From Flavobacteriales bacterium (lineage in GTDB: Bacteria; Bacteroidota; Bacteroidia; Flavobacteriales_C; GCA-002722245), in contig JAHEZL010000023.1 in NCBI GenBank assembly GCA_023251095.1, forward strand, positions 1-64,000: a stretch of DNA of 64,000 nt, given 5' to 3'. The notes beneath the pieces are model-generated. The model was not told the DNA's origin. It saw nothing but the letters and a program-made list of their open reading frames with translations, and made no database searches. Below, piece after piece: positions 11,341 through 59,500 of the stretch. The position numbers and the translations under genes are program-made. Each line of letters opens with the position of its first letter. The stretch's first letter is position 1.

Positions 11341-11468
11341 CAATATTTTAAGAGGTTCAAATAAGTGTTTTATCATTGTAAATCAATTACTTATATTCAC
11401 GTCCGCCTCCATTCCGACTTGATTTTTCATAGACAATTGGATTTCGCGATTTGTAAGGCCTTACTTTG
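11341..11468 (+). promoter_or_regulatory. Shared-architecture promoter, site A
   Basis: Elements in order: CAATATTT at 11341; AATCAATTACTTA at 11381-11393; CTTGATTTTTCA at 11419-11430; GACAATTGG at 11432-11440; a 20-bp spacer; TTACTTTG (-7) at 11461-11468. The same elements recur at the same distances upstream of seven other transcription units. Transcription would start about 65 bp before the ATG at 11539. Confidence 0.8.
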
Positions 11469-11538
11469 ACTTATCTGAGAATATCAGAACAAATGAAACT
11501 TCTAATTTCTTATTATGTTAAACTTAAAAATTAAACCA

Positions 11539-14913: not shown

Positions 14914-14924
14914 ATACAAGAAAA

Positions 14925-16649: not shown

Positions 16650-16666
16650 AATAAAAGGGAAAGATT

Positions 16667-17719: not shown

Positions 17720-17725
17720 AATAGA

Positions 17726-18385: not shown

Positions 18386-18411
18386 TAAAATCTTCATCGC
18401 ATACATTCTCA

Positions 18412-18440
18412 GCTAAGTTTTCAACTTAGCGGAATTTTTT
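18412..18440 (+). terminator. Terminator of the five-gene operon
   Basis: GCTAAGTT / AACTTAGC with a 3-nt loop, followed by GGAA and six T residues. Confidence 0.75.
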
Positions 18441-18475
18441 CTTAAAGAATTAAATCTTTTACATCGTGTTTTTTC

Positions 18476-18554
18476 TTGTAGAGACGCAAAATTTTGCGTC
18501 TTAAATAATAACTGACACATTTTACCGGAGACGGAAAATCTTCCGTCTCTACAA
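18476..18554. repeat. REP/MITE-like element with 11-bp terminal inverted repeats
   Basis: TTGTAGAGACG at 18476-18486 is the inverse complement of CGTCTCTACAA at 18544-18554. Inside are two further hairpins: the perfect palindrome GACGCAAAATTTTGCGTC at 18483-18500, and GAGACGGAA/TTCCGTCTC at 18528-18549. It carries no coding sequence. Its form suits a REP or non-autonomous miniature element. Confidence 0.75.
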
Positions 18555-18678
18555 ACACCATTTCCTAAAATGCAATGAGTCATCTTGAGATAAAATAAGA
18601 TAAAGGTATTTATTCTTGTAAAAACATTTTTTTAAGCCCAATCCACCCCAAAAACACCTGTACAATCACATATTTTAT

Positions 18679-18804
18679 CTATATTTTTCAATACTTAAAA
18701 TTATATTTAACACTGTAAATCAATGACTTAAATTAATATTCTCTTATTTTCATTGATATTATAAATTGACAAATAGCTTCTCGGTTGACAATCGTCTTAA
18801 TTTG
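18679..18804 (+). promoter_or_regulatory. Shared-architecture promoter, site B
   Basis: CTATATTT at 18679; AATCAATGACTTA at 18718-18730; GACAAATAG at 18768-18776; a 20-bp spacer; TTAATTTG at 18797-18804. It precedes the GH97 / large surface protein / GH13 operon. It shares the extra block ATTTTCATTGATATTA with orphan site C. Confidence 0.8.
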
Positions 18805-18941
18805 TATCAGTACGCTATTCTTGAAAGATTTATAACACGTTAAAACTAAAACATATGAAATGTTCAAGCACCGAAATTTTGATCGCTAAAAAAGATAGCA
18901 TGAACATAACATATGACCTTAAAAAATTAAAACCGAAACAT

Positions 18942-32672: not shown

Positions 32673-32800
32673 CAATATTAACTAATCAGCAAAAACACAG
32701 CTTAGTATTTGGTAATCAGATTTTTAAATATCAAACAACACGACATCATCTTGATTTTTCAGAAGCGGCTGGCTTTAGTAGCAAATAACTCTTTACTTAA
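32673..32800 (+). promoter_or_regulatory. Shared-architecture promoter, site H
   Basis: CAATATTA at 32673; AATCAGATTTTTA at 32714-32726; CTTGATTTTTCA at 32750-32761; AGCGGCTGG at 32764-32772; a 20-bp spacer; TTACTTAA at 32793-32800. It lies 24 bp before the ATG at 32824. Sites H and I share the 492-bp divergent gap and overlap no gene. Confidence 0.7.
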
Positions 32801-38201: not shown

Positions 38202-39809
38202 ATGAAGTATAAGTTTTTATTGTTTTTCTATTTCTCTTTTATTTTTTTAGCCTCTGCTAATCAATCTGACGAAGCTGTTTATGCTAAACTGGATAGTCTT
38301 TTAGATCAAAAACCGGAACTCGTAAAACAAAAGCAAAAACGAATCGCCTCTCTGGACAGGATGTTAAAAGACAGTGAAGTCAGAAAGGACATTGCCAATC
38401 AATTTCAATTTTGCACAAAACTTTTTGAAGAATACAAATCCTTTCAATACGATTCGGCATACAAATACACCACCCGCATGGTGAGCACGGCCTACCTCCT
38501 GAATGACAATGCAAAAATCAACAATGCTAAAGTAAATGTAAGTTTCATTTTTCTTTCTGCGGGTATGTTTAAGGAAGCGCTGGATACATTAAACACTGTT
38601 GATCCTATGGCTTTAGCGGTTCCTGAAAGAATTAATTTATACAAAGTTTTTGCGCGAACCTATTTTGATCTTTCTGATTTTTCACAAAATCAGCAATACA
38701 ATCAGGCATACAACACATTGGGAAATGAGTATCTGGAAAAGGCTCTTGCTCTTTCGGAAAAAGCATCTGCAGAATTTCTTTTTTTAAAAGCATGGAAATA
38801 CATGCGTGTTAGAAACATTGAACTGGCGATTAAAACCTACCAAAAATTACTCCTCTATTACAATCTTACAGAACATGAATATGCTATTGTAACATCAAGT
38901 TTAAGCTTTATGTACATGCTGGATAACGATCAACCCAAACACAAAGAATTTTTAATTAAAGCAGCCATCGCAGATATCCGCGGATGTGTATTTGAAACTG
39001 TTGCACTTCGTAATCTTGCGGAAATAATTTACAAAGAAAATGATTTTGACCGCGCTTACCGTTACATAAAAATTGCCAACGATGATGCCTATGCTTATGG
39101 CGCAAAATTCCGTCAGGTTCAGGTGGCTTATCTCTTGCCGATGATAGAAGCTGCAAACATGAACGAGCAGGAAAGCAAAAAAAGAAATCTGATCATCATC
39201 ACTCTTTTCGCAACACTGGTAAGCGTGTTGATTTTTATTTTGTATTTCATCGTTTACCGCAACAACGTAAAACTAAAACTGGCTAAGGCAAGCCTTGTTG
39301 AATCGCATGCAAGCCTTCAGGAATTGAACAACACACTTCTCGATGCCAATAAAATTAAAGAGGAATACATCGGTCACTTTTTCAAAACCATTTCTGAGTA
39401 CATCGACAAACTGGATAAACTTAAAAGTTCCATCGACAGAAAAATTACTCAGAAAAGAACAGATCAGATTCAGGACATTATCAAACAAATTAATCTCAAA
39501 GCAGAGCGCGAAGATTTGTATGGTAGTTTCGACAGGATTTTCCTGAAATTATTTCCCGACTTCATTGCCAAGTTCAATACATTTATCAGCGAAGACGGAA
39601 AATATGTAATTGAAGAAAATGCTCCGCTTCCTCCCGAACTTAGAATTTTTGCACTCATCCGTTTGGGGATTACCGACAATGAAAAAATCGCTCAGTTTTT
39701 AGGCTATTCTATCAATACCATTTATACTTATAAAACGAGGTTGAAGAACAAAACCATTATTCCAAATGAAAAACTGGAAGCGCGGGTGATGGAGATTAAA
39801 GCGAATTAA
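38202..39809 (+). CDS. DUF6377-type membrane-anchored regulator with C-terminal HTH
   Basis: This 535-residue protein has a signal peptide (MKYKFLLFFYFSFIFLASA) and the typical N-terminal LDSLLDQKPELVKQKQKRIASLDRML. A helical, TPR-like periplasmic region spans about 40-325, with one transmembrane helix at about 329-349 (LIIITLFATLVSVLIFILYF). A coiled-coil stretch follows. Residues about 476-520 form a LuxR-like helix-turn-helix (RIFALIRLGITDNEKIAQFLGYSINTIYTYKTRLKNK). Proteins of this layout are found beside glycan loci in Bacteroidota and are thought to sense a periplasmic ligand and bind DNA. It is a strong local candidate for the activator of the shared promoters. It has none of those elements upstream itself and converges on the lectin gene with a 7-bp gap. 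Confidence 0.85.
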   Translation: MKYKFLLFFYFSFIFLASANQSDEAVYAKLDSLLDQKPELVKQKQKRIASLDRMLKDSEVRKDIANQFQFCTKLFEEYKSFQYDSAYKYTTRMVSTAYLLNDNAKINNAKVNVSFIFLSAGMFKEALDTLNTVDPMALAVPERINLYKVFARTYFDLSDFSQNQQYNQAYNTLGNEYLEKALALSEKASAEFLFLKAWKYMRVRNIELAIKTYQKLLLYYNLTEHEYAIVTSSLSFMYMLDNDQPKHKEFLIKAAIADIRGCVFETVALRNLAEIIYKENDFDRAYRYIKIANDDAYAYGAKFRQVQVAYLLPMIEAANMNEQESKKRNLIIITLFATLVSVLIFILYFIVYRNNVKLKLAKASLVESHASLQELNNTLLDANKIKEEYIGHFFKTISEYIDKLDKLKSSIDRKITQKRTDQIQDIIKQINLKAEREDLYGSFDRIFLKLFPDFIAKFNTFISEDGKYVIEENAPLPPELRIFALIRLGITDNEKIAQFLGYSINTIYTYKTRLKNKTIIPNEKLEARVMEIKAN

Positions 39810-39816
39810 TTTACAC

Positions 39817-41166
39817 TTAGTTTTTAATAATCTTTTGCTGCTCAACAAAGGTACCGGCTTTAACAGTAATGATATATGTGCCTTTTGCTAATTCAGGCAT
39901 AATACTGATAGTACTTTGATTGTTTATTCGGTTATCATGGTATAATTCCCTTCCTAAAACATCATGAATAATTATATCCACTTTGCCTTGTATATTGCTA
40001 TTGATAGTCAACACATCATCAAAAGGATTAGGGAAAATGCTAACATGCTTTTTATTTAACTCTACCGTAACAATCTTACTATACTTGAAAACCCCATCAA
40101 AATCCACTTGACGCAAACGATAATAAACATTGTTATCATACAGAGTATTGTCGGAAAATTTATATGCAAGAAAAGAATTAGAATTACCAGCCCCGGCTAC
40201 TTCTCCTATTGCATCCCAGTCAAAAAGATTTGTTGAACGCTCAATAATAAATTTTTCATTATTTATTTCACTGGCAGTTCCCCAATACAAATCTACTTTG
40301 TCTTTTTTATTTATAGCAGTAAATGAAACCAACTCTACCGGCAAAATAGCACAACCCAAATTGTTTCCTGTTAAATTACTAATGTCATGTCCATTACTCA
40401 CTGTTGCCGAACTGGTAGCTCCAAATTTTCCGGATCCCCATGTTTGATTTAATCCCCCCGCACCGAAATAAGTACAAAGTTGATATGATGATCCTGTAAA
40501 ATCGTAAGATAATTTTACTGTTGCGTCAATGTATACTTTTAAGATGTGTGTAAACGGACTATAATTAAAACAAATCCAATGCTCTAAACCATCCTCTAGA
40601 TTCCCGGCATCAGCACTTGTAATTCTTCCGTTGTCGCTCGCATCACCATCTCTATGAATAGCAACCTCATCACTGTTTCCTGAGGTTCCACCACCATATG
40701 AACCATCAAAATTTGCTGTACCCTCACTGCTCCAGGTATCAAATTCCACAGTAATCATTGATGCGCACGCCCCGTGATAACCCAATCCACCACCACAAGC
40801 ACCATTATTAATATTGTAAGCACACTTTGAAAAAGAAAATGAAACACCATCACCTCCTGCATCACTTCCTATATTATCACTTCCACCCGAACATCCAAAA
40901 AACACTTGATAACAAAGGACAAAATTAGCTGAGCCACATGGATCATAAGTTGAAGAGCTTTCCGTAACAGCCGCTCCTGCACATCCTGTACTGGTAGTAT
41001 TCAATAATTGAATCACGCCACTACCCCAGTCGGTATAACCTGTAGTACCTACCGTATAACTTGCATCCCAGCCACCACTAGGCTGAGCATACAAATCAAA
41101 AACAAATGATACCAAAACAAAAGTAATCGGTAAAATTTTTGAGAGGTTAATCATTCTAATATTCAT
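39817..41166 (-). CDS. L-type lectin domain protein with T9SS type A domain
   Basis: A signal peptide ending LYAQ is followed by SGGWDAS and an L-type (legume-type) lectin domain at residues about 35-270: VCYQVFFGC-like core, GDGVSFSF, MITVEFDTWSS, DEVAIHRDGD, LEDGLEHWICFNY and LKVYIDATVKLSYDF. Residues about 275-370 are the usual linker domain (LPVELVSFTAINKKDKVDLYWGTASEIN), then a type A sorting domain (SIFPNPFDDVLTI...AKGTYIITVKAG). It is probably a surface glycan-binding protein. An internal ATG at 41154 is an alternative start. It lies 42 bp behind the upstream gene and shares promoter G. Confidence 0.9.
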   Translation of the reverse strand: MNIRMINLSKILPITFVLVSFVFDLYAQPSGGWDASYTVGTTGYTDWGSGVIQLLNTTSTGCAGAAVTESSSTYDPCGSANFVLCYQVFFGCSGGSDNIGSDAGGDGVSFSFSKCAYNINNGACGGGLGYHGACASMITVEFDTWSSEGTANFDGSYGGGTSGNSDEVAIHRDGDASDNGRITSADAGNLEDGLEHWICFNYSPFTHILKVYIDATVKLSYDFTGSSYQLCTYFGAGGLNQTWGSGKFGATSSATVSNGHDISNLTGNNLGCAILPVELVSFTAINKKDKVDLYWGTASEINNEKFIIERSTNLFDWDAIGEVAGAGNSNSFLAYKFSDNTLYDNNVYYRLRQVDFDGVFKYSKIVTVELNKKHVSIFPNPFDDVLTINSNIQGKVDIIIHDVLGRELYHDNRINNQSTISIMPELAKGTYIITVKAGTFVEQQKIIKN

Positions 41167-41208: not shown

Positions 41209-42921
41209 CTATCTCACAATGACTTTTTCTGTGTAGATAGCATTAAAAGAGTTGGTAACTTGAAGCAAATACATTCCTGATGCAATATTATCAAACTCAA
41301 CAATATTATTATTGGCACTGACCTGATTTTTATATTTAATCAGGCGACCGCTGACATCATACAAAGACAGTGATAACAATGAATTATTTTCGCTGCTGAG
41401 GTGAACCATAATATTTTTTCCTTCGGCAGTTCCGTTATTCAAAACCTTCGCATAAAATTCTTTTTGGCAACCTTGAAATGAAACAACATTAGAATAAGAA
41501 TAACCTCCATCGTAATCTGTTTGTTTCAATCGGTAATACACCGGAAAATTTTCGTGTGCATCAAAATCAACATCGCTATTGTATACTAATCTCTGAGTGC
41601 TGTTACCTGCGCCTTTTACTGTTAACACTTCATTAAAATTTCCACCATCAGCACTTTTTTCTATGGTATAAAAATCATTGTCGATTTCAGAAACCGACAC
41701 CCATTCAAAGGCAACCTTATCATCATCTTGTTTGGAACATGCAGCATCAAAATACATTAGTTTAACAGGCAACACCGCATTTGAACAAGTGCTTACACCT
41801 GCAACAGCCCTGGTACATTTGGTCCACCCACCTGCAGCAGGATCAGTACCATCCCAACCACCGGTGGGATTACCCGCATCACAAAAATCCAGTTCTTGTC
41901 CCGAAGGAACAAATCCTCCCGCTGTATAAGTAGAAACTCCCGCCACATTAATTTTACCGATATATCCGCTTGCCGTAGTAGGTCCCCAGATACCACCGGC
42001 ACTTATAGTATTGGAAGTAAAATTATGCGTAACATCAATCCAGCAATAATTGTAAAAATCCAAAGCAGAATTTGTGAGTGCAAAATCGTAGGCTTTAATT
42101 TTTCCGTAATTATAAAAAGCACTGCTGGTTGCTGTTTCATTATCGGAATAGAATTTCCCTGTACCTGTTCCACTGCTTCCCAAAGTAGTGATTACACCAT
42201 AATTATAAATATTAGAAGCACCGCCATTACTCACCATTCTAAAATCACCGTTTACTTTAATGATTCCTGATGAACGATTCATAAAAGCAGTTGTTCCATT
42301 GTACCCATCTAAATTTACTTTTTTTCCACTTCCCGAAAGTATGATGGTACCATAGTTATCAATAAAACCTGTTCCACCCTGCGGTCCCTTTAAATCTCCA
42401 TTATCTATGGTAATGGTTCCCGATACTGAATTGGTTAAACTGGATCCCTGATTATTCAAATCCATTTGAAAATCTTTATTCGTTCCAGTAACATGAATAT
42501 TTCCTGAATTAGTAACCGTAGTAGCCCACAACAATAAACCCGGAGGAGTTAAAGTACCGGTAACATCCAGCTTTACTAAATTTCCGTTACTGCCCGAATA
42601 ATCCAAAGTTGTTGTTGGCGTCCAGTAACCGGTAACACAAACCCAAACATTACCCACATCGCTGATATTGGTGATTTGACCTGTGTAAGGTGAGCCTGCT
42701 GTTCCGGCAATACAAATTCGGGGATTACTTCCATCGGCCCATGCAACATAATCACCACTGGCCCCGGTTAAAGTTTTTGTACAAGCATTTGCTCCTGTGC
42801 AAATACTTTGAGCATAAACACAATTAAAACCAAACAGCATTATGATTAACAGGAATGAAATTTCAGGAAAACATCCTGAACTGAAATTTTTGTTTATTCT
42901 TTTTGTCACGGCGCTGAGCAT
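41209..42921 (-). CDS. Beta-solenoid-like T9SS type A secreted protein (570 aa)
   Basis: The signal peptide has an extended N-region (MLSAVTKRINKNFSSGCFPEISFLLIIML...YAQ). Residues about 40-390 show solenoid-like repeats of Asn-Tyr-Gly and Gly-rich turns (FIDNYGTIILSGSGKKVNL, NIYNYGVITTLGSSG, FYNYGKIKAYDF), like secreted beta-helical adhesins. Residues about 390-490 are the T9SS-cargo linker domain (LPVKLMYFDAACSKQDDDKVAFEWVSVSEID), followed by a type A-like end (SLYDVSGRLIKYKN...ASGMYLLQVTN...KVIVR). No enzyme motif was recognised. The predicted promoter G places its ATG only a few bases behind the transcription start. Confidence 0.8.
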   Translation of the reverse strand: MLSAVTKRINKNFSSGCFPEISFLLIIMLFGFNCVYAQSICTGANACTKTLTGASGDYVAWADGSNPRICIAGTAGSPYTGQITNISDVGNVWVCVTGYWTPTTTLDYSGSNGNLVKLDVTGTLTPPGLLLWATTVTNSGNIHVTGTNKDFQMDLNNQGSSLTNSVSGTITIDNGDLKGPQGGTGFIDNYGTIILSGSGKKVNLDGYNGTTAFMNRSSGIIKVNGDFRMVSNGGASNIYNYGVITTLGSSGTGTGKFYSDNETATSSAFYNYGKIKAYDFALTNSALDFYNYCWIDVTHNFTSNTISAGGIWGPTTASGYIGKINVAGVSTYTAGGFVPSGQELDFCDAGNPTGGWDGTDPAAGGWTKCTRAVAGVSTCSNAVLPVKLMYFDAACSKQDDDKVAFEWVSVSEIDNDFYTIEKSADGGNFNEVLTVKGAGNSTQRLVYNSDVDFDAHENFPVYYRLKQTDYDGGYSYSNVVSFQGCQKEFYAKVLNNGTAEGKNIMVHLSSENNSLLSLSLYDVSGRLIKYKNQVSANNNIVEFDNIASGMYLLQVTNSFNAIYTEKVIVR

Positions 42922-42932
42922 TATTTTTAACT

Positions 42933-43058
42933 CAAATAAACGCCTTAGTCAAGCCGCTGTCCAGTAGTCTCTGAAAAATCAAGAAGGAATTTAAAAAACA
43001 CAAAATCAATCAACTGATTATCAACATACAACAATTAATATTGCCTTAATAAATATAG
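42933..43058 (-). promoter_or_regulatory. Shared-architecture promoter, site G
   Basis: Minus-strand elements: CTATATTT (43058-43051); TGATAATCA core with AATCAGTTGATTG (43019-43007); CTTGATTTTTCA (42983-42972); GACTACTGG (42969-42961); a 20-bp spacer; TTTATTTG (42940-42933). The ATG at 42921 is 11 bp beyond the -7 box, so the leader would be nearly absent. Confidence 0.75.
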
Positions 43059-43131
43059 GCTTAGTATAGAAAAATATGAAGCGAAAAAGATGTTATTGAA
43101 ACGCAATCGACTACTATATTAAAGAAGAAGA

Positions 43132-43156
43132 AGGTCGTGAAAAATATTCACGACCT
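43132..43156 (-). terminator. Hairpin terminator after the GH87 operon
   Basis: On the minus strand AGGTCGTGAA pairs with TTCACGACCT (10 bp, 5-nt loop) 30 bp after the stop at 43186. The tail is T-rich but interrupted (TCTTCTTCTTT). Confidence 0.65.
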
Positions 43157-43185
43157 CATCTTCGTTTCCCGGAAGTCAAAAAAAA

Positions 43186-45564
43186 TTATTTTATCAATGA
43201 AGATGTTTGTTTACTCATATTGATATCTGATGCAACAACAGTATAAAAACCGGGAGCAAAATTTCCGAAGTTCACGGAGAAATTATTTCCGGGATTGGAT
43301 TGATTGTAAACCAATCTTCCTGTAGCATCATAAATTGCGATTTCACGCAAGGACTCAGGAGCAGTGAAATTCAACACATCAGATACTGGATTAGGATACA
43401 TCTTAAATAACTGCACACTGCTGGTTTCCGTCACACCAACGGTAGTTGAAAAGTCAATATAATTTAAATTAAATCCTCCGGTAGTGGTTGTAATGGTTAA
43501 ATCCATAACTGCCATTGGTAACTGAATATTTTGCGTAACCGTTTGCCAATTTTGCCACCCTCCTGTATTGGGTATATTGATCGTGCAATATACGATACCT
43601 CCTGATTCTAATTTCAAGGATGCTCCATCTACAAAAGATGCTACTCTGAATGAAGCCGCATATTCTTTTGCTTGTGTTACATCTACTTTATATAGCAGAT
43701 AATCTCCGCCATCAATATATCCAATATCCATTCCGACACCAACGTCAGTTGTAGTTTCCGATTGCACGCCTATCATGCTACAATAACTCTCCGCTTGTAT
43801 AACATCGGAAATTTTAGTTCCTATAGATACAGCATCACACGTGGGGCAAGTACCGCCAGTCCAGCTCATGCTGCCTATCGCGCCTTTATTTTCATTTACA
43901 TTCGCATTTCCGCCTCTGTTCATATAATTCATATTGCATGCGGTTGCGTTACCTGAAGGAGTACCGGCAAACAATATATCATAACCTCTGCCCCAGTTTA
44001 AATTATTCACATTGTTGTTAGGGTATTCCTTACCTGTACCATCCACAGTGATGTTTTCAAAAACCAGATTGTAAAATCCTTCACCCGCTTTTTTATAAAT
44101 ATAAATGCCGTCATTTTTTGAATCGGTGATGGTGATATTCGAAAACTTCACGTTGTTAATTCTGGTACCGGCAACGTTGTCGCATAAAATATCAATGGCT
44201 CCAACCGGACTATTAAACAAATCATTGAAGGTTCCGCAACGCACAATTGTAATATCGGAAAACACTTGCATACCGGTAGTATTGAAAGGTGATCCGCTGA
44301 AATTATTTCCAACGCGCAATCCTACTTCCACATTGTCTTTAATCAAAAGGTGATGCGCAGTATTATTTAAACCGCCGTAAATGGCACAGCCTGCAGCTCT
44401 CCAGCAGTTTTCAGAAGTATTGTAACGAAAAGTATTGTTCTGACATTCCTGTCCGCTTTGCGACCAAATTGCCATATCATCATCACCATTGTTTCTAAAA
44501 TCACAATGCTCAACAATTGCATTGCTGGTACCTTTACACAAATTGATTCCATCGGCATAATTATCTCTGAAGCGACAATTAGAAACCGTGAATCCATCGG
44601 AAGCAGAAATACTTCCTGAATTGTATTGCGCTATCCATGCACCACATTCAAAATGTTCGGCCCAAACATTTGTAATGGTTGATCCGCTGGTGTAAACGCC
44701 ATTAATACCTTTGTAAGAACATGATCTTGAATTTCTATTGGTAGTTAAATACAAGCCTGAATAACTGATGTTACTTGCGTTGGCTGTTAAGCCGCCACTA
44801 CCTCCGTCGCAAGTATTGCTTTCGGTAAAATTTATTTGTGTGTACCACATGCCCGCACCTTTTAATTTGGTGTTGGCCACGCCGAAATAAAGTTGAGTAC
44901 TCACTTGAAAAGTTCCTGCCGGAAGATAAATTGTTTTACCGCCGTGTCCGTTAATATAGGTTTGAAGATTGGTTCCATCACCGGTAAAAACCTGATCGCC
45001 TGCAGAGGAAGCAACAGCCGCCGGGACAAGTTCTAATTCTGCGAAATCAACATGTACATTTCCACTCGTTCTCACTAATTTCAAACTTTGTCCGACTAAA
45101 ATTTTTGACGACAATTTCATTCTCACCTCATCAAAACGCATTTTAGGATTGGTATTCACCACGCCGCTGTTATTGGGATTTCCGTCCGACGATAAATATT
45201 CCCACGACCAGTTTGAACTCAAATTAAGCGTACCTGCATATGCGTTATTAGCATACACATCTATACTGCCCGATTGCCCGTCGGGTACACTGTAACGCAC
45301 TACTAATCCGTCGCCATCGGCAGTAACCGTCCAGCTTACAGAAGCATTTGAATTGGATAAATTTACACACACCTGCTCTGAAGCTTCGCTTTGTAAATTA
45401 GATTGCGCAAATGATTTTGCTGTAGCGCTGGCATTGCTTAAAGTTCCCTGATCGGCTTCATACCTGGTGTAGGGAGCATCATAATAACCGGTTTGTGCAT
45501 TTACGTCGTTTGCCCGTAATAAAAGTGCACTTGCAATAAAGTAAAGTAGGTTTAGTTTTCTCAT
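43186..45564 (-). CDS. GH87 alpha-1,3-glucanase/mycodextranase-like enzyme with CBM6 and T9SS type A domain
   Basis: GH87 cleaves alpha-1,3-glucan (mutanase) or nigeran (mycodextranase). After the signal peptide (ending VNAQ), residues about 30-185 form the YEAD-starting carbohydrate-binding-like domain usual in this family (LQSEASEQVCV, FDEVRMKL). Residues about 190-590 are a right-handed beta-helix. Three aspartates, D338 (ADGIN) and D361/D362 (NNGDDD), have the 23-residue-then-adjacent spacing I recall for the catalytic triad of characterised GH87 enzymes. A CBM6 lies at about 600-720 (QAESYCS...GGDYLLYKVDV), then a type A sorting domain (KMYPNPVSDVLNF...APGFYTVVAS). It is the last of four GH87 genes and the only one with a CBM6. 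Confidence 0.88.
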   Translation of the reverse strand: MRKLNLLYFIASALLLRANDVNAQTGYYDAPYTRYEADQGTLSNASATAKSFAQSNLQSEASEQVCVNLSNSNASVSWTVTADGDGLVVRYSVPDGQSGSIDVYANNAYAGTLNLSSNWSWEYLSSDGNPNNSGVVNTNPKMRFDEVRMKLSSKILVGQSLKLVRTSGNVHVDFAELELVPAAVASSAGDQVFTGDGTNLQTYINGHGGKTIYLPAGTFQVSTQLYFGVANTKLKGAGMWYTQINFTESNTCDGGSGGLTANASNISYSGLYLTTNRNSRSCSYKGINGVYTSGSTITNVWAEHFECGAWIAQYNSGSISASDGFTVSNCRFRDNYADGINLCKGTSNAIVEHCDFRNNGDDDMAIWSQSGQECQNNTFRYNTSENCWRAAGCAIYGGLNNTAHHLLIKDNVEVGLRVGNNFSGSPFNTTGMQVFSDITIVRCGTFNDLFNSPVGAIDILCDNVAGTRINNVKFSNITITDSKNDGIYIYKKAGEGFYNLVFENITVDGTGKEYPNNNVNNLNWGRGYDILFAGTPSGNATACNMNYMNRGGNANVNENKGAIGSMSWTGGTCPTCDAVSIGTKISDVIQAESYCSMIGVQSETTTDVGVGMDIGYIDGGDYLLYKVDVTQAKEYAASFRVASFVDGASLKLESGGIVYCTINIPNTGGWQNWQTVTQNIQLPMAVMDLTITTTTGGFNLNYIDFSTTVGVTETSSVQLFKMYPNPVSDVLNFTAPESLREIAIYDATGRLVYNQSNPGNNFSVNFGNFAPGFYTVVASDINMSKQTSSLIK

Positions 45565-45595
45565 TTAATTATGGTTTGGGGGTTAGTACTAGGTT

Positions 45596-47542
45596 TTAAT
45601 ATTTAATAAATTTTGCGGTTTCACCGGAAAGACCATTCGATACTTTTAACAAGTACATTCCCGGCGCCAAATCATCCCCAACAGAATAAACCCCACCTCC
45701 CGTCAGATTTGTATTCCACAAAACTTTACCATTCATATCCATGATGCTTACTGAAAACAATTCTCCGTTTTCTGAATTAAGATTTAAATTTCCCGAAGTG
45801 GAAAACGGATTCGGATAAAAAGAAAAAGAAGAGTTTTTATTTTTAAGATTAGCAACTGCATTGTAATGCTGAGTACAATCTTCCGTCCAGACGAAAGTGC
45901 CGATTTGCGCATTATTAATATTTGACGCCGCATTTCCTCCTCTGTCGCTATAAGTCATGTTGCAATAAGTTCCATAGCCGGCAGGATTGCCTACAAACAA
46001 AATTCCATAACCTCTTCCCCAGTTTAAATTCTTGACATTATTATATGGATATTCTTTGCCGGTTCCTTTGATGGCAATATTCTCAAAAATCAAATTATAA
46101 AATCCTTCACCACCTTTTTTATAAATATAAATTGCATTGTTTTTTGAATCGATAATATCAATATTTGAAAATCTCACATTATTGATTCGTGTCCCTGCTA
46201 CATTGTTACATGCTACATCAATGGCTCCTATAGTTCCATTGAAAAGATCGTTGAAAGTACCACAACCGATAATGGTGATATCAGAAAAAACATGCATTCC
46301 ATTTTTGTTGAATCCGATTCCTGCAAAATCATTGTTTACTTTCAAGCCCGCTTCCAGATTATCCTTAATCAAAAGATGATGCGCCTGGTTGTTCAATCCT
46401 CCGTAAATGGCGCAGCCTGCAGATCTCCAGCAATGTTCGGAAGTATTGTAACGATAGGTATTGTTCTGACATTCCAATCCGTTGGCCGACCAGATCGCCA
46501 TATCATCATCGCCGTTGTTACGAAAACTGCAGTGCTCAACAATAGCATTTGAAGTGCCTTTGCATAAATTAATTCCATCGGCATAATTATTTCTGAAGCG
46601 GCAATTCGACAGCGTAAATCCATCGGCATAATCCGGACCACCAATATTGTACTGACCTATCCATGCACCGCATTCAAAATGTTCGGCCCATAAATTTGTG
46701 ATCATAGATCCGGAAGTATAAACTCCGTTGATGGCTTTGTAAGAATTGGATCTTGAATTTCTGACTGTGGTTAAATACAAATCTGAATAGCTGATGTTAT
46801 TGGCATTTGCACGCAAACCTCCTTTTTTAGCATCGGTAAAATGTATGCGTGTATACCACATGCCCGCACCTTTTAAAACAGTGTTGTTTACACCAAAATA
46901 CAATTCACTTCCTACCTCATAAACACCTGCGGGAAGGTAAATTGTTTTACCTCCGTGCGAATCAATAAAACTTTGCAAACCACTGCCGGTTCCTGAATAA
47001 ACAACATCATTGACTGCCCACAACACTTCTGCGGAGATTGCTTCCATCTCAACAAAATCAATATGGATGTTACCACTTTTTCGTGCTAATTTTAATTTCT
47101 TTCCGGCAGAAATCAGAGAAGATAATTTTAATCTTACTTCATCAAATCTCATTTTAGGATTGGCATTGGCTAAGCCTAAATTTTCCCAGGAATAATAAGA
47201 AGTCAATTTTAAAGTATCTACTAAAATATTATCGGCATAAACTGCCACAACACCTGAATCTCCATTGGGTACACTGTAACGCAAAACTAATCCGTCTGCC
47301 GCGGACGAAAGTGTCCATTCAACAGAAGCGGCAGATGCAGACAAATCAACACACACCTGATTGGATGCTTCACTTTGTAAAGCCGACTGCGCATAAGATT
47401 TTGCAGTAACAACAGCATTTGCCAAAATAGCCGAATCAGCCTCATAGCGAATATATGGTGCATCAAAATATCCTCGTTGCGCAACGAGATTATTCGTTAG
47501 AAATAAAACAAAGTATAATATTAGTATTCGTAGTTTTTTCAT
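45596..47542 (-). CDS. GH87 alpha-1,3-glucanase-like enzyme with T9SS type A domain
   Basis: The second paralogue upstream from the operon end, 648 residues. The signal peptide ends NLVAQ. The N-terminal YEAD-type domain (IRYEADSAILANA, LQSEASNQVCVDL) covers about residues 30-170 and the beta-helix about 175-560. The aspartate triad is D322, D345 and D346. The T9SS type A domain (FSFYPNPFSTSGNLNL...APGMYLLKVSN) follows the helix directly, without a CBM6. It sits 31 bp upstream of the next GH87 gene. Likely an extracellular or surface enzyme. Confidence 0.88.
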   Translation of the reverse strand: MKKLRILILYFVLFLTNNLVAQRGYFDAPYIRYEADSAILANAVVTAKSYAQSALQSEASNQVCVDLSASAASVEWTLSSAADGLVLRYSVPNGDSGVVAVYADNILVDTLKLTSYYSWENLGLANANPKMRFDEVRLKLSSLISAGKKLKLARKSGNIHIDFVEMEAISAEVLWAVNDVVYSGTGSGLQSFIDSHGGKTIYLPAGVYEVGSELYFGVNNTVLKGAGMWYTRIHFTDAKKGGLRANANNISYSDLYLTTVRNSRSNSYKAINGVYTSGSMITNLWAEHFECGAWIGQYNIGGPDYADGFTLSNCRFRNNYADGINLCKGTSNAIVEHCSFRNNGDDDMAIWSANGLECQNNTYRYNTSEHCWRSAGCAIYGGLNNQAHHLLIKDNLEAGLKVNNDFAGIGFNKNGMHVFSDITIIGCGTFNDLFNGTIGAIDVACNNVAGTRINNVRFSNIDIIDSKNNAIYIYKKGGEGFYNLIFENIAIKGTGKEYPYNNVKNLNWGRGYGILFVGNPAGYGTYCNMTYSDRGGNAASNINNAQIGTFVWTEDCTQHYNAVANLKNKNSSFSFYPNPFSTSGNLNLNSENGELFSVSIMDMNGKVLWNTNLTGGGVYSVGDDLAPGMYLLKVSNGLSGETAKFIKY

Positions 47543-47629
47543 ATAAATGTTTGGGGGTTTATATAAACTCTCGATGTAATAAATGTCTTTTTACATAAGC
47601 AAAATTTTAAAATGAATTATCTAATGATT

Positions 47630-49378
47630 CTATTTGGGTGCATTTCCACAGCCCTCAACCTTCAGCCATTCCAGAGTTCCGATCTCGACAGAATTAACAT
47701 CTGCCTTAGCACTTCCTCCTCTGTTTTTAATAGTCAGATTACAATAAGTGATATTTCCTTTAGGTTTATATTTAAAAAACACTCCTGCTCCTCTTTCTCT
47801 TTCTGCATTGATTCCTTTTGCATCATTGTAAGGATATTCTTTTCCTGTTCCGTCAATGTTGATGTTTTCAAAAACCATATTAACGATTTTATCACCGCCG
47901 AAACGCAAGATATAAACAGCATCATTTTTTGAATTAATAATATCGATGTTGGAGAACTTAACGTTTTTAACTTTCATACCGCATCTGTCAGTGCAGCTGA
48001 TGTCAATCGCTCCGATAGGACCATAATACAAATCGTTGTTTGTTCCGCATCTGATGATAGTAATATCCGAAAACTCATGCATTCCCGCATCATTGAATCC
48101 TGCGCCCGGAAAAGCATTGTTCACTCTTAATCCTGCTTCCAGATTATCTTTAATTAAAAGATGATGTGCTTTATTATTCAAGCCGCCATAAATAGCGCAA
48201 CCTGATGCTCTCCATGTGTTTTCAGATGTACAATAAGCGAAAGTATTGTTTTGACATTCCATTTTATCGGCCGACCAGATGGCCATGTCGTCATCACCGT
48301 TGTTACGGAAACTGCAATGTTCAACAATAGTATTTCTGGTACCTTTACACAAATTGATTCCATCGGCATAATTGCCTCTGAATCTGCAATTCGTTACTAA
48401 AAATCCGTCGGCATATTCCACTTCACCTTTGTTGTATTGTGCTATCCATGCACCACATTCAAAATGCTCGGCCCACACATTTTTAATCACCGATTTCTGA
48501 GTAAAAATCCCGTTGATCGCTTTGTAAGAATTGGATCGTGAATTATTATCAGTAGTTAAAAAAAGATCTGTGAAACTGATGTCTTTTGCGTTGGCATACA
48601 ATCCGCCTTTCAGCCATTTTATTTTTTTGAAATTCAATTGTGTGTACCACATTCCGGCACCTTTTAAAGTAGTGCCGTTTACACCAAAATAAAGCTCGCT
48701 GTAAATGTTGTAAACTCCCGCAGGAACATAAATTGTTTTACCTCCGTTTTGATCAATAAAACTTTGCAGCTCATCTCCTTCTCCCGAAAAAACAAGATCC
48801 CCCGGAGCAGCGGAAACAGCAGCAGGAACAGTTTCTATTTCAACGAAATCAATATGAATATTACCGCTTTTATTTACGAGTTTTAATTTTCCTCCCGCAG
48901 CAATTTTTGAAGGCAACTTCATTCTGATTTCATCAAAACGCATTTTAGGATTGGTGTTGGTAACACCGCTGTTGTTGGAGTTTCCATCTTTCCACAAATA
49001 CTCCCACGACCAGTGTGCACTCAAATTTAAAGTGCCCGCTTTTTTTCCGTCGGCATAAACATCCAGTTCCGCTGTGCTGGAATCAGGAACGCTAAAACGA
49101 ACTACCAATCCATCACCACCTTCTTTAATTTTCCATTCAACAGAAGATTTCTTTTTAGTAAGATCAACACATATTTGCTCCGAAGCTTCGCTTTGCAATT
49201 CAGTCTGACTGAAAGACATTGCAGTTGCTTTTGCTTTCGACAAAGTTGCTTTATCCGCTTCATACCTTACATAAGGCGCATCGTAATAACCTCTCTGATC
49301 GCTTTGCGCATTAAGGAAGCCATTTGTTAAAAATAAAATGGCACAAGATATCCCGCTTAAAATCTTAGATTTTTTCAT
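47630..49378 (-). CDS. GH87 alpha-1,3-glucanase-like enzyme without sorting domain
   Basis: This 582-residue paralogue has the same order: signal peptide (ending FLNAQS), YEAD-type domain, beta-helix. The aspartate triad is D339, D362 and D363 within ADGIN...NNGDDD. It stops soon after the helix (GTLEWLKVEGCGNAPK) and lacks any T9SS C-terminal domain, so Sec export would leave it in the periplasm. The 87-bp gap to the next gene holds no clear promoter. Confidence 0.87.
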   Translation of the reverse strand: MKKSKILSGISCAILFLTNGFLNAQSDQRGYYDAPYVRYEADKATLSKAKATAMSFSQTELQSEASEQICVDLTKKKSSVEWKIKEGGDGLVVRFSVPDSSTAELDVYADGKKAGTLNLSAHWSWEYLWKDGNSNNSGVTNTNPKMRFDEIRMKLPSKIAAGGKLKLVNKSGNIHIDFVEIETVPAAVSAAPGDLVFSGEGDELQSFIDQNGGKTIYVPAGVYNIYSELYFGVNGTTLKGAGMWYTQLNFKKIKWLKGGLYANAKDISFTDLFLTTDNNSRSNSYKAINGIFTQKSVIKNVWAEHFECGAWIAQYNKGEVEYADGFLVTNCRFRGNYADGINLCKGTRNTIVEHCSFRNNGDDDMAIWSADKMECQNNTFAYCTSENTWRASGCAIYGGLNNKAHHLLIKDNLEAGLRVNNAFPGAGFNDAGMHEFSDITIIRCGTNNDLYYGPIGAIDISCTDRCGMKVKNVKFSNIDIINSKNDAVYILRFGGDKIVNMVFENINIDGTGKEYPYNDAKGINAERERGAGVFFKYKPKGNITYCNLTIKNRGGSAKADVNSVEIGTLEWLKVEGCGNAPK

Positions 49379-49411
49379 GTGTAGATAATTTAATTTTAAT
49401 AGTCGCCTAGC

Positions 49412-51148
49412 TTATTTCACCTTCACGCAATCTTTCACTTCCGTTAAAGTAAAAGAACCTATTCCATTATCATCTACATCTACCATAGCACTTCCACCAC
49501 GATTTTTATAAACAATATTACAAGACGTAGCATTTCCTGCAGGATTTTGAATGATGATCATACCAAAACCACGAGGCCAGTCTTTTTTCTGTTCATTGTT
49601 GTAAGGAAATTCTCTTCCTGTTCCATCCACAGTAATGTTTTCAAAAACCAGATTGTAAAATCCTTTTCCGCCGATTTTGTTCATCAGGATCGCATTGTCT
49701 TTGGCATCAATCACATCAATGTTTGAGAATTTTATGTTTTGAACTTTTGTTCCTGCCAAGCTGTTACACATCAAATCGATGGCACCCACCATGTTGTAAA
49801 ACAAGTCGTTGAAAGTACCGCATCTTACAATGGTAATATTTGAAAATTCATGCATTCCTTTTTCACTGAAACCAACACCGGGATAGTTGTTGTTTACTCT
49901 GATACCACACTCCACATGATCTTTCACAATAATGTGATGCGCTTTGTTGTTTGTTCCGCCGTAGATGGCACAACCTGATGATCTCCATCCGTTTTCAGCA
50001 GTACTGTAAGCAAAAGTATTGTTCATACATTCCAATCCGTCGGCACACCAAATTGCCATGTCGTCGTCACCATTGTTACGGAAGCTGCAATGTTCAACGG
50101 TTGTATTTCTTGTTCCTTTACAAAGATTGATGCCGTCGGCATAATTGTTTCTGAAACGACAATTAGAAACTGTAAATCCATCAGCAAATAAAATATCACC
50201 GATATTGTATTGAGCGATCCAGGCTCCGCATTCAAAATGTTCTACCCAAAGATTTTTAATAACAGATCCGCTGGTGAAAACACCATTGATTCCTTTGTAA
50301 GAACTTGATCTTGAATTTCTGGTGGTTGTTAATGACAAATCTAAAAAACTAATGTCTTTTGCGTTGGCACGAAGACCACCTTGCAAATAATCTTCACTTG
50401 TAAAATTCACGGTAGAATACCACATCCCTGCACCTTTCAGTTTAGTTCCCGGTACACCGAAATACAATTCTCTGTTTACATTGTAAGTTCCTGCCGGCAA
50501 ATAAATAGATTTTCCTCCGCCTTTGTTGTCGATGAAAACCTGTAAATCACTACCATCTCCTGTGTAAACCAAATCAGCCGCTGTAGCCTGAACCGCTGCA
50601 GGTACTGCTTCCAATTCTATAAAATCAAGATGAATATCTCCGCTTTTGTTAACCAGTTTTATTTTTCCGCCTGCTGCAATTTTAGAAGGTAATTTTAAAC
50701 GAACTTCATCAAAACGCATTTTAGGATTTTCATTTTTAACGGCAACGTTATTCGGATTACCATTTGTAGTTAAATACTCCCATGACCAATAAGAAGTAAG
50801 ATTCAAAGTTCCAACCAATTTACCATCAGCATAAACATCCACCACTCCTGATTTTTCATCGGGTACACTGTAACGAACCACTAATCCGTCGGCCTCTTTT
50901 TTCAGTTTCCATTCTACAGAAGCATCTTTAGCCGATAAATCAACACATACCTGCTCAGAGGCTTCACTTTGTAAATCTTTCTGATTGAAAGACATCATGG
51001 CTATGGTAGCATTGGTTAAAGCACCCTGATCAGCTTCATATCTAAGATAGGGAGCATCATAATAACCTCTTTCGTCCTGGGCGTTTAAGCTTGTCGACAA
51101 ACATAGCGCCGCACCAAGTATTAGATTTAAAGTTTTTAAGGTTCTCAT
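49412..51148 (-). CDS. GH87 alpha-1,3-glucanase-like enzyme, first gene of the array, without sorting domain
   Basis: I place the start at the ATG at 51148 (MRTLKTLNLILGAALCLSTSLNAQ); the frame extends ten codons to a non-ATG at 51178, which adds nothing signal-like. The 578-residue protein has the YEAD-type N-terminal domain and a beta-helix with triad D338, D361 and D362. It ends right after the helix (GSFTLTEVKDCVKVK) with no sorting domain, like its neighbour, and is probably periplasmic. Promoter E lies about 80 bp upstream and should drive all four genes. Confidence 0.87.
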   Translation of the reverse strand: MRTLKTLNLILGAALCLSTSLNAQDERGYYDAPYLRYEADQGALTNATIAMMSFNQKDLQSEASEQVCVDLSAKDASVEWKLKKEADGLVVRYSVPDEKSGVVDVYADGKLVGTLNLTSYWSWEYLTTNGNPNNVAVKNENPKMRFDEVRLKLPSKIAAGGKIKLVNKSGDIHLDFIELEAVPAAVQATAADLVYTGDGSDLQVFIDNKGGGKSIYLPAGTYNVNRELYFGVPGTKLKGAGMWYSTVNFTSEDYLQGGLRANAKDISFLDLSLTTTRNSRSSSYKGINGVFTSGSVIKNLWVEHFECGAWIAQYNIGDILFADGFTVSNCRFRNNYADGINLCKGTRNTTVEHCSFRNNGDDDMAIWCADGLECMNNTFAYSTAENGWRSSGCAIYGGTNNKAHHIIVKDHVECGIRVNNNYPGVGFSEKGMHEFSNITIVRCGTFNDLFYNMVGAIDLMCNSLAGTKVQNIKFSNIDVIDAKDNAILMNKIGGKGFYNLVFENITVDGTGREFPYNNEQKKDWPRGFGMIIIQNPAGNATSCNIVYKNRGGSAMVDVDDNGIGSFTLTEVKDCVKVK

Positions 51149-51229
51149 AATTTCTTTATTTAATGGGTTTTGAATCATTAAGTGTATTCGTTTTAATCAA
51201 AAGTGTTAATCGTTCACATTTCATTTACT

Positions 51230-51357
51230 CAAATAAACATTTTACTTAACACTAAATCCAATTGTCCCTGAAAAATCAAGACGAAACACAAAACCACAAA
51301 TCATTAAGTATTTGATTATCAAACTACAAATAGGCTTAAATAGATTCATAAATATGG
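51230..51357 (-). promoter_or_regulatory. Shared-architecture promoter, site E
   Basis: Minus-strand elements: CCATATTT (51357-51350); AATCAAATACTTA (51317-51305) inside the near-palindrome GTTTGATAATCAAAT; CTTGATTTTTCA (51280-51269); GACAATTGG (51266-51258); a 20-bp spacer; TTTATTTG (51237-51230). It serves the GH87 operon. I see nothing in 51358-51590 between this and site C. Confidence 0.8.
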
Positions 51358-51727: not shown

Positions 51728-51823
51728 CAGACGTTCGTATAAATACTTACAATATAAAGATCCTTACCTGGTTAGATTTGACCCCTATCCCATGCTTCTT
51801 GAGGGAGAAGCATGGGATTTTTT
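51728..51823 (+). ncRNA. Candidate small RNA from orphan promoter C to terminator
   Basis: If site C is active, transcription would begin near 51728 and end at the hairpin at 51788-51823, giving an RNA of roughly 95 nt with no start-to-stop ORF of note. The poor -7 box is the main argument against activity. Confidence 0.3.
51788..51823 (+). terminator. Intrinsic terminator, plus-strand orientation
   Basis: TCCCATGCTTCT / AGAAGCATGGGA (12 bp, 6-nt loop) followed by TTTTTT. The T-run lies on the plus-strand side only, so it fits a rightward transcript, although the nearby minus-strand gene (stop at 51836) could also use the hairpin. Confidence 0.8.
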
Positions 51824-55325: not shown

Positions 55326-58300
55326 TTATTTAAGAAGAGAAACTCTTCCAACTTCTTCTCGGGTTTTTCCATCGTGCTTCCAATCCGACCAGTATTTGTA
55401 AGAGATTTTCCATACATACACATCAATCTGAGCATTTCTCAAATCATTGTATTTTTTCCCGTTCCAGCCGGTATTCATATCATTGGTATGAAAGATAACT
55501 TCACCCCAACGATCGAAAACAAATAACTCGAAATCGTAAATATTTTCACCGCTCACATAAAAAACATCATTAACACCATCTTCATTGGGCGTAAATGCAT
55601 TGGGTGCAAAAATAGAAGAAGGACAATCTTCAGAAACAATCACTGTGTCATTCGATGTGCATCCAAAATCACTCACTAGTTCAACCCTATATTCACCATC
55701 CTTTCTAACAGTCATAAACTGTCCGCTTTGTCCGTCACTCCAGTTGTATTGAGTAGCATCGCTTCCTGCATCCAGTAATAATCCGTCCGACAATTTCACG
55801 AAGCAAACTGTTGTATCTTGCATGCCCAACACCTTAGGTTGATCATGTACAAATACTTCCAGATTATCTGTTGCATTACACATCCCTTCATTACTTACCG
55901 CTATAGAAATTACGCCCGCAGAACTCACTGTAATACTCGACCCTATTTCCCCTGTTCCCCACGTTATACTTACGTTAGTAGGAGTAACCTGTGCACTAAT
56001 TCGCGCACTTTCACCAGCACAAAGATCAATATTAGGTCCAATCTCCACCGTTGGAGTTTTCACAAATCGTGCATTGGCTGCTCCAGTCCCTATGCATCCA
56101 TTAGCATCAGTAACAACAACTGAATAAGCTCCGTCGACAGTAGCAAACAAGGTTTGAGCAGTTGACGCATCATTCCATAAGTAATCGGCTCCCGGGTTTT
56201 CTGCATCAAACACTGCTGTAGTTCCTTCACAACCAACGTAGTCAGCCCCTAGTTTTACGATAGGATTAGGATTGACTGTAAGCGTAGCCATATCGGAGTT
56301 TTTGCAACCATTTACATCAGTAACAGTAACGGTATAAGTTCCTGCTTGTGATACTGTAATCGGATTGATGGCCGAAGTAAAGGCATTTGGTCCAACCCAA
56401 CTATAGACACTATAATTACCCGCATTGAAAGTAGCGGAAAACCCTGCGCATTTTGCCTGATCGGCAACTGCCGGTGTTGGTAAAGGATTGACGATTAAAT
56501 CCACATCTCCATCTCCCTGACAACCCAGCGGATCCTGTACATGTACGGCATAATTTCCTGCAACACTAGGACTGATCGCTTGCGTGTTATTGGTGTATCC
56601 GGCCGGACCGATCCATGCGTAAGTCACGCCCGCAGCTGCATAGTTGGCCGTGAAAGTAATGTTATCTCCTGCACAAATACTTTTGTCGGCTCCTAAATCA
56701 ATAGTCAGATTCGGATTTACCGTTACATCTATTGCATCACTGTTTTTACAACCGTTGGCATCCGTCACTGTAACAGTATAAGTTCCTGCTGTACTCACAG
56801 AAATAGAGGAAGTGGTTTGGTTTCCCGGCGCCCATTTATAAACAGAGAAAGTAGCTCCTGCATCTATTGTTACAGATGCCCCTGCACACATACTTTGATT
56901 GGCTCCCAAATCCACAACCGGCAATGTATTCACTGTTAAAACGCCTGTTGCAAAAGCTTTACAGCCTTTGGCATCAGTCACCTGAACAGTGTAATTCCCT
57001 GCAATACTTCCTGTTGTTGTTTGCGCCGCTCCAGTTCCATTGGCACTCCACAAATAAGCAGCATATCCTGCTCCTGCATCAAAGGTTGCTGCAGGATCTC
57101 CGGTGCATATTGCTTTGTTTGCTACAACAGGTGTTGGCAAGGCATTTACTGTTAAAACTGCTGTTGTTGTAGCCGAACAACCTCCGGCACTGGTAACCAC
57201 CACAGTATAATTTCCTGCTGTATTCCCTGTAGTTGTTTGTGCTGTACCCGTTCCATTCACACTCCAGGTGTAGGAAGTATAACCCGGTCCGGCATCAAAA
57301 GTAACAGCCGGATCTCCGGCACATATTGCCTTATTTGCAACTATAGGTGCTACTGCAGAGCCCGTAGATAAAACTCCTGTTGCTGAAGCCTTGCAGCCTT
57401 TAGCATCTGTTACCTGAACGGTATAATTTCCGGCTGTAGTTCCCGAAGTGGTTTGAGCAGTTCCTGTTCCCAATGCGCTCCACAAATAAGCAGAATATCC
57501 CGGTCCTGCGTCAAAAGTAGCAGAACCACCACCACAAATAGATTGATTGGCTACTGAAGGTGTTGGCAATGCATTTACTGTTAACACTCCTGTTGCTGAA
57601 GCTTTACAACCTTTGGCATCAGTTACCTGAACAGTATAATTTCCTGCTGTAGTTCCACTTGTTGTTTGTGCAGTACCTGTTCCATTCACGCTCCAAACAT
57701 AGGACGTATAAGAACCTGCATCAAAAGTAGCAGCAGGATCTCCTGCACAAATTGCTTTATTGGCTACTGTTGGTGTTGGCAATGCGTTTACTGTCAACAC
57801 CCCAGTTGCTGAAGCTTTACAACCTTTGGCATCAGTCACCTGAACAGTATAATTTCCGGCAGTAGTGCCCGAAGTGGTTTGCGCTGTTCCTGTTCCGTTG
57901 GCGCTCCACAAATAAGCAGAATAAGAACCTGCATCAAAAGTAGCAGCAGGATCTCCTGCGCAAATTGCTTTATTGGCTACTGTTGGTGTTGGCAATGCGT
58001 TTACTGTCAATACCCCTGTTGCTGAAGCTTTACAACCTTTGGCGTCTGTCACCTGAACAGTGTAGTTTCCTGCGGTAGTTCCCGAAGTGGTTTGAGCGGT
58101 TCCGCTTCCGTTAGCACTCCAAGCATAAGCAGAATAAGCTCCTGTAGTAAAAGTAGCAGCAGGATCACCCGCACAAATAGCATTATTAGCTACTGTTGGT
58201 GTTGGTAAGGCATTCACCACCAAAACTCCTGTATCTTTAGCCGAACAACCCGCAGCATTGGTAACGTCAACAATGTAATTACCTGCACCGGTACTTGATG

Positions 58301-59372: not shown

Positions 59373-59500
59373 CAAATAAACATTATAACTACTGCTAAAT
59401 CCACTTGTCCTTGAAGAATCAAGATAAAACACAAAACCAAATAGAATTAAGTGTTTGATTATCAAACTACAAATGAACATGAGTAGAATTATAAATATGG
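59373..59500 (-). promoter_or_regulatory. Shared-architecture promoter, site F
   Basis: Minus-strand elements: CCATATTT (59500-59493); AATCAAACACTTA (59460-59448) within the perfect palindrome GTTTGATAATCAAAC; CTTGATTCTTCA (59423-59412); GACAAGTGG (59409-59401); a 20-bp spacer; TTTATTTG (59380-59373). Long stretches match site E base for base. I see nothing else in 59501-59773. Confidence 0.8.

Follow-up and report, generated by a model that had tools for sequence, protein, structure and literature searches.

Four adjacent GH87 genes in a predicted alpha-glucan locus of a Flavobacteriales bacterium

Four GH87 genes in a row

We analysed a 64,000 nucleotide stretch from the genome of a Flavobacteriales bacterium (NCBI GenBank assembly GCA_023251095.1, contig JAHEZL010000023.1, positions 1 to 64,000), hereafter called the window. 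The list of open reading frames (ORFs) of the window contains four complete ORFs, here named A to D, which lie in the same orientation on the minus strand between positions 43186 and 51178 and are predicted to encode enzymes of glycoside hydrolase family 87 (GH87). Gene A (43186-45564, 792 amino acids) codes for a signal peptide, the catalytic domains CatAgl_D1 and CatAgl_D2, a carbohydrate-binding module of family 6 (CBM6) and a type A tail of the type IX secretion system (T9SS). The product of gene B (45596-47542, 648 amino acids) has a signal peptide, both catalytic domains and a T9SS tail, without a carbohydrate-binding module. Genes C (47630-49378, 582 amino acids) and D (49412-51178, 588 amino acids) encode only a signal peptide and the two catalytic domains, without a secretion tail. 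The domains were annotated with Pfam and the tails of A and B also with NCBIfam TIGR04183. For gene D the ATG at 51148 (578 amino acids) is a more probable start than 51178, because the starts of the orthologues agree with the coordinate given in a preliminary description of this DNA, made from the sequence alone.

The preliminary description had called this region four consecutive GH87 genes and had suggested a profile search and an overlay on a solved GH87 enzyme. Both were run, and the Pfam profiles, the best solved relative, the predicted fold and the catalytic triad agree with the assignment. Of the two GH87 catalytic domains, CatAgl_D1 is a beta-sandwich and CatAgl_D2 a right-handed beta-helix. 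All four proteins are well over the cut-offs of both Pfam PF22815 (E 4e-25 to 1.5e-30) and Pfam PF22816 (E 1e-19 to 9e-25), so the match is far beyond chance. The best solved relative of D and A is Agl-KA (5zru) with E 7e-87 and 4e-86, respectively. The solved full-length relatives found for the two are only GH87 alpha-1,3-glucanases, 5zru being by far the best, and A to D are 37-40% identical to it. The structure model of gene D (17 relatives in the alignment, pLDDT 85.3) superposes on 5zru over 523 residues with Z 43.0 and a root-mean-square deviation of 2.3.

The D-(22 residues)-D-D arrangement, previously named as the catalytic triad, was found in every copy (A: D338/D361/D362; B: D322/D345/D346; C: D339/D362/D363; D: D348/D371/D372) and is invariant in 22 of 22 aligned sequences, 5zru included. 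In gene A the triad codons are at 44551-44553, 44482-44484 and 44479-44481 (minus strand). The triad columns are those of the catalytic residues D1045/D1068/D1069 of Agl-FH1 and of D346/D369/D370 of Agl-EK14 (residue numbers from PMC10696023). The third D of the GDDD motif is not conserved outside the array group in the 22-sequence alignment and therefore lies outside the triad.

Placement in another beta-helix family without a GH87 match was looked for and not found. An identity as pectate lyase, GH28 enzyme or polygalacturonase was rejected, the matches to GH28 (E 0.018) and Pect-lyase_RHGA (1e-5) both being below the cut-off. Other beta-helix families were also rejected on structure, as the seven top matches of the gene D model are all GH87 with Z 39-43 and the other families fall to Z 28 or less. 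NCBIfam, the source of protein names at NCBI, gives on A to D a generic beta-helix match below the cut-off and the T9SS tails, nothing more, which makes the earlier remark that such enzymes are easily mislabelled plausible. These results support A to D as new members of GH87, a family that is itself known. From the sequences we infer that they encode endo-alpha-1,3-glucanases, in kind closest to Agl-EK14.

Agl-EK14 of Flavobacterium sp. EK-14 is a GH87 enzyme of 980 amino acids with the triad 346/369/370 and was shown to cut alpha-1,3-glucan (PMC10696023). It shares with A to D the Bacteroidota origin, the Sec signal, the catalytic domains and the triad, and with A and B the T9SS tail. It differs by its immunoglobulin (Ig)-like and ricin-type modules, and the genomes with Flavobacterium-type proteins were seen to carry a single gene, without tail-less sisters or an array. 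Two such proteins (in genomes G557 and G678) have catalytic domains 62-66% identical to A to D. The one in G557, with 979 amino acids, Ig-like repeats, a T9SS tail and the triad 345/368/369, resembles Agl-EK14 in these features. Agl-KA of Bacillus circulans and Agl-FH1 of Paenibacillus glycanilyticus (6k0m series) share the fold (Z 43.0 and about 39-40) and the Asp triad, but have Gram-positive secretion and other accessory domains.

The gaps between A and B, B and C, and C and D are 31, 87 and 33 bases long, and a scan of these three gaps found no terminator-like site. A strong terminator-like hairpin with a T-rich tail is positioned 3' of gene A at the end of the array (43131-43157, minus strand), and a further strong hairpin between the array and its upstream gene (51787-51818, plus strand). 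With hairpins on both sides of the block and none in the gaps, and with a shared upstream element in front of D alone, the genes likely form one operon with a single D-C-B-A transcript, in line with the earlier claim. A genome search found no GH87 genes beyond A to D in the 3.59-Mb genome.

The four had been described as the same enzyme. This stands for the catalytic domains and fails for the architectures, which differ in the CBM6 module and T9SS tail of A, the tail of B, and the lack of both in C and D. The signal peptides of all four, identified by eye, have no lipobox. The C-terminal sorting domain (PF18962/TIGR04183) of A and B is above the cut-off, and Pfam and NCBIfam detected no T9SS tail on C and D or on their orthologues in the genomes G007 and G731. 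In these two genomes the A- and B-type genes have tails, together with CBM6 or with Big_7 and CBM9, whereas the C- and D-type genes are tail-less, and this pattern holds in every species for which the gene end was read. The secretion system itself is represented in the genome by a SprA match of 1786 bits. Decayed tails downstream of C and D were rejected, because these genes are followed by only 87 and 33 bases of intergenic DNA, too short to hold one. Judged by these signals, A and B most likely act outside the cell and C and D in the periplasm.

Age and distribution of the array

The catalytic regions of A to D are 66-71% identical among themselves, and orthologues across species are 77-87% identical for D and 79-85% for C. 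C and D cluster with their positional orthologues of other species and not with each other. The ratio of nonsynonymous to synonymous substitution rates (dN/dS) between orthologues of this genome and G007 is 0.05-0.09 for A, C and D and about 0.15 for B. Ratios reach at most about 0.23, all of them rough values because synonymous sites are near saturation. A recent tandem duplication or gene conversion was rejected based on the near-saturated synonymous divergence between the copies and on the clustering of C and D with orthologues. These sequence comparisons show an old array on which purifying selection acts. The earlier suggestion of selection for different contexts is partly supported by this and by the retention of the copies as orthologues, with compartment and binding modules as the visible difference in context. 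The support does not extend to a difference in substrate.

The four-gene set is conserved in at least three species. In G007, of the same genus, two extra ORFs separate C from D, and the set of G731, a more distant genome, is interrupted by a GH13 gene and genes for lectin-like proteins. In G730, D and C are adjacent at a contig end. The inserts of G007 (L010, 14310-17867 and 18950-19522) are a GDSL-lipase/Big_2 protein and a 190-amino-acid ORF without a recognised family. Profile searches found no GH87 in G006 and G008 of the same genus. The weak match in G009, also of this genus, was rejected as a GH87 gene (20 bits over 50 positions, below the cut-off, no full GH87 enzyme). The order- and family-level samples are the same 10 genomes and hence add no breadth. 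GH87 carriers are rare in the class and phylum samples, with 6 of 395 genomes in each, and outside this genus these samples contain no GH87 array, the carriers there being single-copy. The papers searched did not describe a GH87 array or tandem.

There is also a second, divergent GH87 lineage (L036 1275-3038, L039 283-2001 and L043 2083-3807), about 30% identical to the array enzymes, which adjoins GH31 and GH13 in G732 and G733.

The locus and its outer-membrane module

The 17-mer CTTGATTTTTCAGRGAC is found upstream of the genes starting at 11515, 32824, 42921, 51178 and 59297 in the window and of the contig gene 65423 (G000:C15:65350). It reads CTTGATTTTTCAGGGAC before the GH87 operon (51264-51280, minus strand) and CTTGATTTTTCAGAGAC before the gene pair 41209-42921 and 39817-41166 (42967-42983, minus strand). 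The copy before 11515, at the head of an outer-membrane module, has one mismatch (11418-11434, plus strand), and those before a GH43 protein (32750-32766, plus strand) and before the lectin-like protein 55326-59297 (59407-59423, minus strand) have two. Allowing up to three mismatches, the window contains 6 matches compared to 0.43 expected, and none of 100 shuffles reaches 6; the sixth match, at 6956, is outside the regulon set. Six of the eight best copies genome-wide (two mismatches or fewer, 3.59 Mb) are located within this 54-kb stretch, as are four of the six best when the two defining sites are left out. Related copies precede GH87 D and the homologues of 41209 and 11515 in G007, and in G730 the lectin-like gene before GH87 D. 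The 17-mer looks like the mark of one regulon, for which a SusR-family protein is the natural candidate binder. About 30 bases beyond the 17-mer, several copies have a TTTATTTGA-like stretch.

The array appears to sit in an alpha-glucan locus of about 57 kb, judging by gene content, which spans from about 11.4 kb in the window to 68.5 kb of the contig. With a SusR-type regulator and co-located GH87 (four genes), GH97 and GH13, it shares these features with a canonical SusC/SusD polysaccharide utilisation locus (PUL). The regulator, a SusR-family glycan utilisation regulator (DUF6377), is encoded at 38202-39809 on the plus strand (NF058541, 559.6 bits with a cut-off of 480; Pfam: PF19904). Next to it on the minus strand are a surface protein with a lectin-like N-terminal region, seen by eye, and a T9SS tail as its sole Pfam domain (39817-41166), whose homologues adjoin GH87 genes in G731, G007, G730 and G732, and a secreted protein with a T9SS tail and no assigned function (41209-42921), for which the neighbour in G007 is 79% identical.

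On the plus strand, a secreted protein with a T9SS tail (11515-12627), identified by Pfam and synteny, has homologues adjoining GH87 D in G731 and G732 and preceding the 5' end of the D-type gene in G733. Further downstream, Pfam identified a GH97 alpha-glucosidase-type enzyme, a probable lipoprotein (18855-21050). It is followed by a giant surface protein with a CHU_C T9SS signal (21175-27402), whose homologue is beside GH13 and GH87 in G732 and G733, and by a GH13 alpha-amylase-family enzyme with a T9SS tail (27408-29273), whose homologue lies within the GH87 array of G731. A lectin-like surface protein with a CHU_C T9SS signal (55326-59297, minus strand) was assigned by profile and synteny.

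Between the secreted protein at 11515 and the GH97 gene there is a row of four plus-strand genes, none of which matched a Pfam or NCBIfam family (12706-18385). They encode a predicted outer-membrane beta-barrel of 735 amino acids (barrel 1, 12706-14913), a second predicted outer-membrane protein of 574 amino acids with a C-terminal Phe (barrel 2, 14925-16649), a lipoprotein with a LAGC lipobox (16667-17719) and, based on sequence and synteny, a second lipoprotein that is a candidate glycan-binding protein (17726-18385). For barrel 1 a low-confidence model (pLDDT 65.6) was obtained, and its structural matches are all membrane beta-barrels, among them ushers, porins and TonB-dependent receptors (best Z 15.3). 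Barrel 1 relatives, a family without a Pfam or NCBIfam model, are present in 46 of the 395 class genomes, and in the loci read barrel 2 always follows barrel 1, mostly with one or two lipoproteins after it.

With the GH97 gene added, the row (12706-21050) encodes two predicted outer-membrane proteins, followed by two putative proteins of the surface-binding type and one glycoside hydrolase; syntenic sets are present in G007, G009 and G006 and shorter ones in G347, G004 and G254. Besides the window, module copies were located in L045 (11048-16780), L066 (6893-12550) and L068 (2057-8382). Across Bacteroidota the copies are paired with differing glycoside hydrolases, namely GH9 (in L068 and G006), GH3, GH16 or GH97/GH13. 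L068 belongs to the same genome as the window and is a paralogous set in the same order, with a GH9 enzyme and a fourth protein of 380 amino acids. The module of G007 has GH97 and GH13 as neighbours. In G733 one contig carries, in order, GH87, GH31, GH13, the giant surface protein, barrel 1, barrel 2, lipoprotein 1, lipoprotein 2, SusR, the T9SS protein and the 5' end of a D-type GH87 gene. On gene content, the loci of the window, G733 and G007 are rearranged versions of one gene set.

A SusC/SusD importer pair is usual in Bacteroidota. Profile searches of this genome detected no SusD and no SusC over the cut-off, the sub-cut-off SusC matches all being on other contigs.

Further genes were noted in and around the locus. 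The GH43 protein (32824-38025, 1733 amino acids), which shares the upstream element with the GH87 operon, has two pectate-lyase-like stretches, an F5/8 C domain, GH43, two CBM6 and a T9SS tail. A surface protein with long tandem repeats starts at 60035 (L106) in a 1740-amino-acid frame that runs past the window end at 64000, and a second one of this kind, with the upstream element, is found at contig positions 65423-68485. At 9245-10213 there is a homologue of inward-rectifier potassium channels (IRK) in this bacterial genome.

Proposed function and competing explanations

We read the locus as an atypical SusC/SusD-less alpha-1,3-glucan utilisation locus, in which substrate, import and regulation are deduced from families and gene order. 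The D-C-B-A operon would be one arm of this SusR-regulated locus, a reading to which we give a probability of about 0.66. T9SS-exported lectin-like surface proteins and the CBM6 module would bind the polymer, as their domains suggest. A and B would then cleave insoluble alpha-1,3-glucan endolytically outside the cell, while GH13 may open alpha-1,4 parts, both roles following from the families. Catalysis by the Asp triad would follow the mechanism proposed for Agl-FH1, in which a general acid acts together with a water-activating base. The two lipoproteins and two barrels would capture and import the fragments, as synteny and the Cytophaga precedent suggest, and in the periplasm C, D and GH97 may trim the imported oligosaccharides, with GH97, and in relatives also GH31, yielding glucose. 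The SusR-family regulator would induce the locus.

Two known systems resemble parts of this arrangement. The predicted GH87-GH97-GH99 PUL of Prevotella melaninogenica likewise combines GH87, GH97 and a SusR-like regulator for alpha-glucan, but has a TonB-dependent transporter, a SusD-like protein, a GH71/99-type enzyme and a single GH87, which is a lipoprotein (PMC13421300). The locus described here has four GH87 enzymes, T9SS export and no SusC/SusD pair. CHU_1276-CHU_1280 of Cytophaga hutchinsonii, an atypical PUL required for cellulose use, is also a run of genes without SusC/SusD, which code for two outer-membrane proteins, two proteins of the surface-binding type and one glycoside hydrolase (PMC12016534). 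Its layout is matched by the GH9 form of the module, and CHU_1279 (375 amino acids, PMC12016534) is near in length to the fourth protein of L068. The substrate there is cellulose, whereas the module here is tied to alpha-glucan enzymes.

Several points weigh against our reading. The likeness to CHU_1276-CHU_1280 lies in how many genes there are, in their order and lengths and in the GH9 enzyme of the paralogous set, and does not come from a comparison of sequences; the low confidence of the barrel 1 model keeps the role in import a proposal. A missing T9SS tail on C and D is no proof of a periplasmic location. Two of the 17-mer sites also served to define it, and its genome-wide matches at three mismatches (54 compared to 30 for the reversed control, about twofold) are mostly noise. 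GH87 also includes mycodextranases, which do not act on pure alpha-1,3-glucan (PMC13421300).

The presence of both activities in the family, and the co-localisation of GH13 in several relatives, would fit a mycodextranase (nigeranase) specificity, with A to D cutting mixed alpha-1,3/alpha-1,4-glucan such as nigeran and GH13 the alpha-1,4 stretches. We consider this improbable, as the solved relatives found are all alpha-1,3-glucanases with 5zru by far the best, and one enzyme of the 62-66% identical Flavobacterium type is a mutanase with hardly any action on starch (PMC10696023). The operon might instead serve mainly as a weapon or tool against living fungi, by wall lysis or predation, and not for feeding; Agl-EK14 removes alpha-1,3-glucan from the walls of Aspergillus and strengthens the growth inhibition by chitinase plus beta-1,3-glucanase (PMC10696023). 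However, the profiled parts of the locus yielded neither a chitinase nor a beta-1,3-glucanase, and the SusR-family regulator, the GH97, GH31 and GH13 partners and the outer-membrane module point to sugar use, which makes a mainly antifungal role improbable.

That the four copies simply provide dosage, doing the same job in the same place with an incidental tail loss on C and D, would agree with the whole active site being kept in all four. Types with a fixed tail or no-tail architecture nevertheless persist across species with about 30-35% divergence between types, and the near-saturated synonymous sites speak against a recent amplification, so dosage seems improbable. The module at 12706-18385 could also be a chance neighbour that imports another substrate, for example starch fragments, while GH87 products enter elsewhere. 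About 25 kb separate it from the GH87 operon, and the enzymes closest to it are GH97 and GH13. On the other side, in G733 it is placed on one contig between GH87/GH31/GH13 and SusR with the D-type GH87 start, and the 17-mer precedes both units in the window and both the module head and GH87 D in G007. A chance neighbourhood is a serious competitor, if still an unlikely one.

As a system, a four-enzyme GH87 operon inside a predicted alpha-glucan locus with a SusC/SusD-less outer-membrane module is a new variation on known arrangements, and the literature searched contained no description of such a module outside cellulose users. It is an even bet whether the core of two barrels and two lipoproteins is a general SusC/SusD-independent harvesting system of Bacteroidota, with a SusR-type regulator at a shared element. 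Its pairings would be GH9/GH3 for cellulose, GH16/GH3 for beta-glucan and GH87/GH97/GH13/GH31 for alpha-1,3-glucan.

Alpha-1,3-glucan is a polymer in fungal walls and dental plaque, and A to D are good candidates for breaking it in either material, with the exported and tail-less forms as a natural split for comparison. The locus matters more than the enzymes, since it suggests that the SusC/SusD-less cellulose system of Cytophaga may be a general importer, with alpha-1,3-glucan as another of its substrates.

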